Shown: positions 1-38,484 of the stretch, in pieces | Layout of the letters: every line of letters starts with the position of its first letter | Numbering within the stretch: position 1 is the stretch's first letter | Origin: a virus | DNA length: 38,484 nucleotides | Direction: 5' to 3' (one strand) | Virus record (IMG/VR): IMGVR_UViG_3300034358_000001 | Span: 1 to 38,484 of that record | The notes under the pieces: generated by a model | What the model saw: only the letters and a program-made list of their open reading frames with translations | What the model was told of the DNA's origin: nothing | The model's database searches: none | Program-made: the position numbers and the translations under genes

Positions 1-127
1 TAAGACCTTAGGTAAGACTCTAGGTAAGACCTTAGGTAAGACTCTAGGTAAGACCTTAGGTAAGACTCTAGGTAAGACCTTAGGTAAGACTCTAGGTAAG
101 ACCTTAGGTAAGACTCTAGGTAAGACC
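1..127. repeat. 24-bp tandem repeat array, left part
   Basis: Five perfect copies of a 24-bp unit plus 7 further bases. Each unit is two alternating 12-mers, taagaccttagg and taagactctagg. The first 111 bases are identical to the last 111 bases of the window (38374-38484), so the two arrays are probably the same locus cut open by the assembly. By position it corresponds to the short-repeat region that follows the left terminal repeat in T7. Copy number is probably unreliable because the array is longer than many short reads. Confidence 0.9.
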
Positions 128-34400: not shown

Positions 34401-35504
34401 ATGTCCACAAAAGCTAAGAACGTTCAAATCATTACACAATTAAAAGGAGATTTCGTCGCGTTCCTGTTCGTCTTGTGGAGGGCCTTGAATCTACCAGTAC
34501 CGACCAAGTGTCAGATTGATATGGCACGTACGCTCACTAATGGAGACCACAAGAAGTTTATCCTACAGGCGTTCCGTGGTAGCGGGAAATCCTTTATCAC
34601 CTGCGCGTTCGTTGTGTGGGTGCTGTGGCGGGACCCTCAACTAAAGGTGCTCATCGTGTCTGCCTCTAAGGAACGTGCTGATGCCAACTCCATCTTCATC
34701 AAGAACATCATCGACCTCTTGCCATTCCTCGAGGAGTTGAAGCCTAAGCCAGGACAGCGTGACTCCGTGATTAGCTTTGATGTGGGACTTGCCAAACCTG
34801 ACCACTCACCCTCTGTGAAGTCTGTAGGTATTACTGGGCAGCTGACTGGTAGTCGTGCTGACATCATCATTGCGGATGACGTTGAGGTCCCTGGTAACAG
34901 CTCTACAAGCTCCACCCGTGAGAAGCTGTGGACGTTAGTAACAGAGTTTGCTGCATTGCTCAAGCCTCTACCTACAAGCCGCGTAATCTATCTGGGGACG
35001 CCTCAGACCGAGATGACCCTGTACAAGGAACTTGAGGACAACAAAGGATACTCTACGATAATCTGGCCTGCACAATACCCACGTAATGCTACAGAAGCCC
35101 TGTACTACGGAGACCGCTTGGCTCCTATGCTGAGGGCTGAATACGATGAGGGCTTTGAGGTGCTCGCTGGGCAACCTACAGACCCTGTCCGATTCGACGC
35201 TGACGACCTTCGTGCTCGCGAGCTGGAATATGGCAAGGCAGGTTACACTCTACAGTTCATGCTCAACCCGAACCTGAGTGATGCCGAGAAGTACCCTCTA
35301 AGACTCCGTGACGCCATTGTGTGCCCTGTAGACACTAAGCGTGCCCCTTTGTCCTACCAGTGGTTGCCGAACCGTCAGAACGCCAATGAGGAGCTTCCTA
35401 ACGTGGGTCTTAAGGGTGACGACATCCATAGCTTCCACACAGCCTCAAGTAAGACCGCTGAGTACCAGCAGAAGATTCTTGTGATAGACCCTTCGGGTCG
35501 TGGT
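34401..35504 (+). CDS. 19: Large terminase subunit gp19, exon 1 (ATPase and start of nuclease)
   Basis: First 368 codons of the packaging motor. The ATPase domain has Walker A FRGSGKS, Walker [10 protein letters not shown] and GTPQTEM; conserved T7 blocks run to [11 protein letters not shown]. That last segment carries D363, by position the first catalytic aspartate of the C-terminal RNase H-like nuclease. The exon ends on a codon boundary (GGT) at the predicted 5' splice site. Without splicing, eight intron-coded residues follow to a TAA at 35529-35531, giving a 376-aa protein without nuclease. Joined to 36188-36838 it gives 584 aa (T7: 586). ATG 34401 after AGAGGAGG. Confidence 0.96.
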
Positions 35505-36187
35505 GAACTCTTTGCCTCGACATTAAACTAACCTCTCTAATTGCTGGGACATCTCTTGTAGACAATCAGCAGCGAAGCCCATCACCGGGAACGTTCAACG
35601 ACTAACAGTACACCTATGCTTGGTGGAAACGGGAGGCTCCTCAATAGTGAGGATGAAGATATAGTCTGGACTCTATGGCGACATAGAGAAAGAGCCTTAG
35701 CAAGCTCTCAACAAACAACCTTACTACAGATATCCCAATGGAGGATTAAACCAAATGAAGAATCGACTTTATCGTGTATACCACATCAGGCCACTCGGAG
35801 AGACAGATACCTCTAAGTTCTACGTAGGTATCACCAAGAACTCACTGAGCTTCCGCCTAAGCCAACACATGACCTCTCAGAGGCCTATAGGAACCATTCT
35901 ACGGGACTTAGGTAGAGAGTCTGTGGAAATCATCAGCCTGTTCTTTGGGAGCCGTGAGGCAGCCTTACAGCTCGAATATGAGCTACGTCCTGATATGAAC
36001 ATAGGGTGGAACTTAATGGCTGGTGGTAACTGCAGTAAAGACGTTAAGGTGAAGCTGAAGTCACCTGACGGGATTCTTTATGCTCCGTATAGTCTCACAC
36101 AGTTCTGCAACGAGCACGGACTGGTTACCGCTAATGTACGCAAAGTCATTAATGGTGAACGGAGACATACCAAAGGTTGGACAATCG
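35505..36187 (+). ncRNA. Group I self-splicing intron (IA type) in the large terminase gene
   Basis: 683 nt. P1: exon UCGUGGU (35498-35504) with internal guide GCCUCGA (35514-35520), G.U at the splice site. P10: UCUUU (35509-35513) with exon-2 AAAGA (36188-36192). P3: 35532-35537 with 35631-35636. P4: 35542-35546 with 35567-35571. P5: ACA/UGU. P6: 35578-35580 with 35587-35589. P7: GACUA (35600-35604) with UAGUC (35662-35666). P7.1: CACC/GGUG (35611-35625), the extra stem of IA introns. P8: 35639-35652. P9: seven pairs with GCGA loop, 35671-35688. Conserved boxes GTTCAACGACTA and AAGATATAGTC resemble T4 td. It ends in G36187. All core helices precede the endonuclease gene. Splicing joins GRG to [10 protein letters not shown], the uninterrupted T7 sequence. 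Confidence 0.96.
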
Positions 36188-36195
36188 AAAGATGA
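35755..36195 (+). CDS. Intron-encoded GIY-YIG homing endonuclease with NUMOD-type DNA-binding end
   Basis: 146 aa. Residues 1-91 form a GIY-YIG nuclease domain: YRVYHI (6-11) and FYVGITKN (22-29) stand for GIY and YIG, then R34, H38, probable catalytic E74 (QLEYEL) and N86 (GWNLMAGG). Residues about 100-146 ([28 protein letters not shown]) look like a NUMOD/intron-encoded-nuclease helix-turn-helix repeat. It would cut intronless terminase genes at the insertion site and so spread the intron. ATG 35755 follows GGAGGA. Codon 145 spans the 3' splice site and the stop TGA (36193-36195) is in exon 2, so full-length protein needs unspliced RNA. Confidence 0.93.
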
Positions 36196-36838
36196 AACTG
36201 GGTATGCAGTACTCTATACCCTCAATGGGTACATCTACCTGATGGAAGTGGGTGGCTACCGAGGAGGCTATGATGACCCTACCTTAGAGAAGCTCGCTAA
36301 GAAAGCCAAGCAGTGGGACATACAGACGGTAGTCCACGAGAGTAACTTCGGTGACGGTATGTTCGGTAAGGTATTCCAGTCGACCCTACTGAAGCACCAT
36401 AAGTGTTCCATGGAAGAGATTCGCGCTAGAGGTATGAAAGAGCTGCGCATCTGCGACACCATTGAGCCACTCATGGGTTCACACCGTTTGGTTATCCGTG
36501 ATGAGGTTATCAGGGAGGACTACCAGACTGCGCGTGACGTCGATGGTAAGCATGACGTTCGATACAGTGCATTCTATCAGATGACCCGTATGACCCGCGA
36601 GAAGGGCGCTGTGGCCCACGATGACCGGGTGGATGCTTTAGCTTTAGGCATCGAGTGGTTACGTGAAGGGATGCAGGTTGACAGTAAGATAGGAGAAGAG
36701 GAGATGACTCTAGAGTTCCTAGAGCATCACATGGAGAAAGCTATCGTCGGCGGTGAGATGGCCCGTGAGTTAACCTCAGGTGGCGTAGACATCTACTACG
36801 AAGACGATGGGGATGGGGTGTCCTTTATGGGATGGTAA
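36188..36838 (+). CDS. 19: Large terminase subunit gp19, exon 2 (nuclease domain)
   Basis: 216 codons following the intron. It starts [20 protein letters not shown] and continues T7-like ([74 protein letters not shown]). This is the rest of the headful/concatemer-cutting nuclease; [11 protein letters not shown] carries the last acidic metal ligands. The end ([18 protein letters not shown]) matches the acidic T7 end. The open frame extends upstream to 36080 only because the intron has no stop in this phase; it has no ribosome site there. Confidence 0.95.
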
Positions 36839-36862: not shown

Positions 36863-37324
36863 ATGAAGGTGGCAATTGACCCTATAACTGGTTGCCACAA
36901 CTTCCTTGGGTGTAAGACCAATGGTGGTTACGGTAGGGTTCGTGTCAAGGGTGTCCATTGGATGGCCCACAGATACGCCCTACACGTCCACCTACGGCGT
37001 CCACTTAAGGGTGGTTGTGTTGTTATGCATATGTGTGATAATCGCGCCTGCGTGAACCCTGAGCACCTTAAAGAGGGTACTCAGAAGGAGAACATGGATG
37101 ACTGTAAGGCCAAGGGTAGGATGTACCGTCCAGGAGCTAAGAACCCAGCTAGGGGTGACAACAGTAAGAACGCTCTGATTAACATTATGAAGAGACGTAA
37201 CGAGACCATACAGCAGGTGTTAGCACACAAAGGCAAGCCAAAGGTGGTAGCTGAGGAGCTCGGGCTGAACTACCATTGGGTGCGTGATGTGCGTAACGGT
37301 AAGATAGTTATGCAAGAATTATGA
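36863..37324 (+). CDS. Free-standing HNH homing-type endonuclease
   Basis: 153 aa. HNH_3-type motif: HRYALHVHLRRP, then HMCDNRACVNPEHLKEGT with H56, C58, C63, N65 and H68, the same family as T7 gp2.8/3.8/5.3/7.7. The C-terminal part (about 125-147, KVVAEELGLNYHWVRDVRNG) is a helix-turn-helix-like DNA-binding segment. ATG 36863 after GGGAGG, 24 nt behind the terminase stop. T7 has no such gene here, while the HNH genes T7 carries elsewhere are all absent from this genome. Confidence 0.93.
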   Translation: MKVAIDPITGCHNFLGCKTNGGYGRVRVKGVHWMAHRYALHVHLRRPLKGGCVVMHMCDNRACVNPEHLKEGTQKENMDDCKAKGRMYRPGAKNPARGDNSKNALINIMKRRNETIQQVLAHKGKPKVVAEELGLNYHWVRDVRNGKIVMQEL

Positions 37325-37569
37325 ATAAATAAGCAGACATAGCAGTGATATGTAGTAAACCTTAAGTTACTGTTTTGTCTGTGTTAGTCTAATTGAACTC
37401 GCTAATGGGAGGGGCCCCCTAAGATAACTTAAAGACACTTATAGACTGCTTATGCAAAGTGCATACTCAGTGAATGACTGTTAGCCTACTTACAGTGGGA
37501 TGGTGATTATGATTATATCCATCCCCACTATCAGTGATAACATCAAGACTAACGTAAGGAGGACACTCT
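37325..37569 (+). other. 245-nt gap with the phiOR-like promoter
   Basis: Contains the promoter at 37390 and the leader of gene 19.5. AT-rich repeats of the taagataactt type follow the promoter. No gene is seen. Confidence 0.7.
37390..37412 (+). promoter_or_regulatory. Phage promoter (phiOR-like)
   Basis: TAATTGAACTCGCTAATGGGAGG, +1 at G37407. It shares the unusual TAATTGAACTC recognition part with T7 phiOR. G at -6 is a further change. In T7 this promoter serves as right-end origin and helps packaging. Confidence 0.85.
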
Positions 37570-38330: not shown

Positions 38331-38484
38331 CCTTAGGTAAGACTCTAGGTAAGACCCTAGGTAAGACTCTAGGTAAGACCTTAGGTAAGACTCTAGGTAA
38401 GACCTTAGGTAAGACTCTAGGTAAGACCTTAGGTAAGACTCTAGGTAAGACCTTAGGTAAGACTCTAGGTAAGACCTTAGGTAA
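38331..38484. repeat. 24-bp tandem repeat array, right part
   Basis: Starts ccttagg, then alternating 12-mers; one early unit is a variant (taagaccctagg at 38350). From 38374 to the end (111 bases) it is identical to bases 1-111. Together with the left part it probably forms one array directly behind the terminal repeat. Confidence 0.9.

Follow-up and report, generated by a model that had tools for sequence, protein, structure and literature searches.

A group I intron encoding a putative GIY-YIG homing endonuclease in the large terminase gene of a T7-like phage

How would a T7-like phage make its large terminase (TerL) when gene 19 is broken by 683 nucleotides of insert? The question is raised by IMG/VR virus record IMGVR_UViG_3300034358_000001, the whole of which, 38,484 nucleotides, was analyzed and is here called the window. 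The plus-strand terL frame opens with ATG 34401 and, if read without splicing, stops at TAA 35529–35531, just within the insert. The Rfam covariance-model search that had been proposed as a check in the first-pass annotation gives a single match at the gathering threshold in the window, both strands considered. This is Intron_gpI (RF00028) at 35495–35688 (+); it scores 76.6 bits (gathering score 50; E 6.5e-18) and covers the full model (1–253). The group I intron itself occupies 35505–36187 (+), its borders being set by the pairings P1 and P10 and by protein continuity.

Both splice sites can be read directly from these pairings. P1 (35498–35520) joins exon UCGUGGU (35498–35504) to IGS GCCUCGA (35514–35520), with the U35504–G35514 wobble at the 5' splice site, which falls after U35504, and one U–U mismatch; an equally mismatched P1 is readable in the Slopekvirinae phage P284. 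P10, of five base pairs, joins UCUUU (35509–35513) to exon-2 AAAGA (36188–36192), and the final intron base is G36187. In the core, all on the plus strand, P3 (35532–35537/35631–35636), as placed by the covariance model, encloses P4, P5 and P6. P4 lies at 35542–35547/35566–35571, the guanosine-binding helix P7 at 35600–35604/35662–35666, P8 at 35638–35643/35648–35653, P9 at 35671–35677/35682–35688, and a P9.1-like hairpin at 35691–35695/35704–35708. As to the subgroup IA extensions between P7 and P3, P7.1 is present at 35611–35625 (paired 35611–35614/35622–35625), and P7.2 is not seen. P2 is absent from the window intron.

The predicted fold is supported by the covariance model and by covariation, and little by thermodynamic folding, minimum-free-energy structures of the window intron being no better than those of shuffles (z -0.90). 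When the window structure is laid over 12 related introns, double-sided changes fill 59 cells; shuffles give 23.7, and no slid control exceeds 42. P7 is invariant in 12/12, P4 is paired in all 12 with four compensatory pairs, and P9 is 100% paired with five. P3, P7.1, P8 and P9.1 are paired in 31–58% of cells, the alignment being gapped or ambiguous in those helices. The first-pass annotation had held, from the letters alone, that gene 19 is interrupted by a group I intron bearing a homing endonuclease, and the RF00028 match, the splice pairings and the 584-residue join bear this out to the base. Its U·G pair at the 5' splice site, its terminal G and its contention that P1 and P10 fix both splice sites are all found as described. 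It had further drawn P3 through P10 together with P1 and P7.1, and here P1, P3, P4, P7, P7.1, P8, P9 and P10 can indeed be drawn; P5 is weak in this intron. Judged from sequence, terL contains a genuine and well-built group I intron, which carries a GIY-YIG gene and is of ordinary mechanism.

That mechanism would run as follows. In late mRNA the ribozyme core, putatively of type IA in view of P7.1, would bind GTP at P7 and cut after U35504 of P1. Exon 1 would then be ligated to exon 2 by way of P10, restoring a TerL of 584 residues. RNA left unspliced would bear the GIY-YIG frame with its own ribosome-binding site, and the endonuclease made from it would cleave gene 19 in co-infecting phages that lack the intron, at a nearly invariant motif, repair then copying the intron in. 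We infer self-splicing, cleavage and homing. A self-splicing group I intron, putatively of type IA, with GIY-YIG homing, inserted at the IDPSGRG/KDETG junction of a Berlinvirus-related, T7-like terL, is very probably the best explanation of the locus.

The last step, homing, would fall to the endonuclease. The endonuclease gene (35755–36195, +; 146 aa) follows a Shine-Dalgarno sequence, GGAGG at 35740–35744 (+), 10 nt before ATG 35755. Its GIY-YIG domain, PF01541, scores 23.5 bits, near the cut-off of 22.6, and its C-terminus is I-HmuI-like, with PF22083 (I-HmuI NUMOD-like) above its cut-off. A profile search recovers I-HmuI (1u3e). TAL-effector matches of the same profile in the PDB were rejected as spurious, no single stretch passing alone. 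Residues Y9, Y23, R34, H38, E74 and N86, which by position correspond to the GIY-YIG catalytic residues known from I-TevI, are invariant in 11 homologues. The AlphaFold model has a mean pLDDT of 80.6 and is weak at 81–96, and its fold matches are all weak, the best being I-HmuI (E 0.0057), with the similarity to I-TevI weak too. A middle segment of ~20–40 residues, carried by all ten aligned homologues, is missing. Taken with the low model confidence there, this absence suggests that the enzyme may be reduced or decaying, and hence that the intron might splice while its shortened endonuclease no longer cuts, being inherited vertically on its way to loss. We regard this as unlikely, if far from negligible, given that the frame is open behind a good ribosome-binding site and that the protein keeps both its catalytic residues and its I-HmuI-like domain at the C-terminus. 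The last two residues and the stop codon use exon 2 (36188–36195; TGA 36193–36195), so that the excised intron has no stop in the endonuclease frame, and the full-length enzyme would be expected only from unspliced RNA.

Splicing itself is the step to which the terminase protein speaks. Exon 1 (34401–35504, +; 1104 nt, 368 aa) encodes the ATPase domain and the first nuclease strand, IDPSGRG, and exon 2 (36188–36838, +; 651 nt, 216 aa) the remaining nuclease domain. Excision of 35505–36187 leaves 584 residues in frame, followed by a stop codon and with no internal stops. The first-pass reading of a GRG-KDETGY join thus stands, and IDPSGRG-KDETGY matches both T7 and Erwinia phage pEa_SNUABM_57, a Berlinvirus, to whose TerL the spliced protein is 90.2% identical (78.7% to T7 gp19). 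Only in the spliced protein is the RNase H-like nuclease domain of the T7 type (PF22530) complete (1–108), at residues 362–469, where it scores 133.4 bits vs 120.9 for exon 2 alone. Against pEa_SNUABM_57 exon 1 has 98 synonymous and 27 non-synonymous codon differences and exon 2 has 52 and 30; both exons differ mostly synonymously, which points to (purifying) selection on the whole gene.

Could the terminase instead be made as two polypeptides, an ATPase and a nuclease, with the insert no more than an endonuclease gene and a dead intron? Exon 2 could begin in frame inside the insert, at ATG 36080 or ATG 36134, so two open reading frames do exist, and the K1E record lists a comparable second half as a gene of its own. 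Neither start codon, however, has a good ribosome-binding site before it, and the break falls inside the nuclease domain, leaving the IDPSGRG strand with its conserved Asp in exon 1 and the rest in exon 2. The ribozyme core and splice pairings, moreover, are intact and conserved, and we consider two separate polypeptides very improbable. Still less credible is an assembly chimera or a chance similarity, with no intron in the window phage; the insert is known from one virus record, and the exact core pattern has no second copy in IMG/VR, but the exons are intact, in frame and parted at a sensible site, the IGS and P10 fit the phage's own exon bases, and homologous introns stand at the same site elsewhere.

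With the self-splicing intron as the preferred reading, we can ask where else such introns occur. The 80 closest IMG/VR TerLs (80/80) are uninterrupted at the nuclease motif. Among phage records with T7-like TerL matches (E 1e-14), 1214 of 1218 read across the junction, as judged with an 80-aa query spanning it at a coverage of at least 80%. Of the other four, which fall below that coverage, one is cut short by the record edge yet crosses the junction. On these two counts, no other interrupted T7-subgroup TerL was found among the 80 IMG/VR TerLs and 1218 phage records, with a small reservation for the remaining three.

Beyond that subgroup the insertion has many relatives. A tblastn search with the window endonuclease matches 48 phage records, and in 22 the match spans at least 80% of the protein. 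The full-length records that were examined all place it within split TerL genes of Autographiviridae. These are P284, Henu2_3, ZH4 and PA28 (Slopekvirinae), K1E, phD2B, P433.1, SE29, K1-ULIP33 and cp4 (Molineuxvirinae), VEN (Colwellvirinae), and Kpp-61. All of the examined records except K1-ULIP33 (L014) exceed the RF00028 gathering score; the K1-ULIP33 core is almost the same as that of K1E and departs once from the AGATAT stretch, which is invariant elsewhere. Insertion points were read against the uninterrupted KP34 and SP6 genes. The Slopekvirinae introns (Klebsiella P284, Henu2_3 and vB_KpnP_ZH4; Pseudomonas PA28) match RF00028 and carry a GIY-YIG gene, as in the window, and are inserted after DP[S/A]GxG, at the same codon. 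They are longer, at 795–802 nt vs 683 nt, with endonucleases longer than the 146 residues of the window's, to which they are 49–53% identical (tblastn). The Molineuxvirinae and Colwellvirinae introns (K1E, phD2B, K1-ULIP33, P433.1, VEN) interrupt the same nuclease motif and carry a homologous GIY-YIG gene; they come directly after DPAG, which puts them 6 nt upstream of the point used in the window, and their endonucleases are ~31–35% identical to the window's (tblastn). The window intron thus has what characterizes TerL introns of the Autographiviridae, namely insertion in the DP[S/A]G nuclease motif and a homologous GIY-YIG gene.

Other breaks in terL came to light in the same records. In ZH4 and Henu2_3 the TerL Walker B motif is the site of another group I intron, inserted after IPDD (L001 1918–2167; L002 1967–2212) and without an annotated endonuclease gene, so that terL in these two phages lies in three exons, the pieces of which the records annotate separately. 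RF00028 also matches twice (L017 2555–2824 and 2940–3162) just upstream of the annotated terminase of Acinetobacter phage YMC13/03/R2096, beside an HNH gene; terL of this phage, too, is probably split.

Environmental contigs supply the nearest ribozymes. The window endonuclease alone retrieved no relatives from IMG/VR, and an alignment of endonuclease relatives retrieved 10 loci. One, on IMGVR_UViG_3300033144_001577 (L101/L110), has an RF00028 match, an insertion point identical to that of the window, and the core closest to the window's (70% over 179 columns). Another, on IMGVR_UViG_3300033558_000011 (L100), matches RF00028 and is inserted one codon earlier. The TerLs of these two contigs are only ~46–48% identical to that of the window. 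Further loci are Molineux-like. Searched as a pattern, the window-type 5' junction occurs on the L101 contig only, and a looser core pattern matches 38 loci, of which only L110, on that same contig, lies in a TerL related to the three queries. In L103 (1541–2336) and L106 (727–1477) TerL similarity is broken a second time, over ~0.75–0.8 kb, at a point ~300 residues before the intron site.

Do the gene, the ribozyme and the endonuclease share one history? In the TerL tree the window groups with pEa_SNUABM_57 and T7 (100/99 and 100/100). The ribozyme-core tree joins it to L101 and L100 (100/99), and the AU test rejects a clade of the window core with those of the Slopekvirinae (p 0.00015), which places the latter in another lineage. 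The endonuclease tree puts the window with the Slopekvirinae (94/96), and a concordant placement is not rejected there (p-AU 0.104). Slopekvirinae TerLs are only ~33% identical to the window TerL, as against ~50% for the endonucleases, and together with the trees this favours horizontal movement; the endonuclease has perhaps been exchanged between introns. A mosaic may be imagined, in which a core of T7-like and environmental TerL lineage acquired, by exchange at the same target site, an endonuclease of Slopekvirinae lineage, and the intron newly entered the T7 subgroup. Firm as the core result is, the endonuclease tree is compatible with concordance (p-AU 0.104), and we therefore offer this mosaic as a suggestion, plausible if somewhat short of an even chance.

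The first-pass annotation had ventured that a gene 19 intron in this group may be new. As a kind of intron it is not; the phD2B announcement of 2014 describes a large terminase gene interrupted by an intron that carries a homing endonuclease gene, an arrangement that its authors found otherwise, within the Autographivirinae, only in K1E (PMC4246154), and the Slopekvirinae and Colwellvirinae examples are homologous. What stands is the narrower claim, for the T7 subgroup (Studiervirinae-like TerL) apparently has its first example here, as far as the collections searched go. No published T7-subgroup TerL intron was found in the open-licence literature, from which a case could be missed. A new subfamily thus appears to be added to a known kind. 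Introns in terL also occur in unrelated phages, and splicing has been demonstrated for those of the Bastillevirinae (SIOphi, phiAGATE; PMC11878797) and of ICP1 (PMC10448857). These go with VSR-like nucleases and an adjacent T5orf172 nuclease, respectively, whereas the window has a GIY-YIG enzyme. Terminases are among the usual phage targets according to one review (PMC3984707). In T7-like phages group I introns are placed in the DNA polymerase gene 5 by Bonocora and Shub (2004), as cited in PMC11878797; these, too, interrupt an essential gene, though a different gene and site, and in the window gene 5 has no interruption. The TerL intron family now reaches the T7 subgroup, that of a model phage. 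Homologous and presumably mobile introns occur in several phage subfamilies, no more than two codons apart, in a single motif of the packaging motor, which makes them a tractable case for homing-site drift and for recombination between ribozyme and endonuclease. Annotators should join such split terminases, not list two genes.

Some features of the surrounding genome may be recorded here. A free-standing HNH endonuclease gene (36863–37324) follows gene 19 and resembles gp19.4 of phage 13a. Close relatives have a perfect T7-type promoter downstream of gene 19, at the phiOR position, which is missing in the window; a remnant, TAATTGAACTCGCTAATGGGAGG, lies at 37390–37412, after the HNH gene, with 4 mismatches in the 15-base core. 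The two ends of the window (1–80 and 38405–38484) carry the same repeats, alternating TAGGTAAGAC units in which the ends have at least 60 bases in common; this would fit a T7-like terminal repeat and a genome that is nearly complete.
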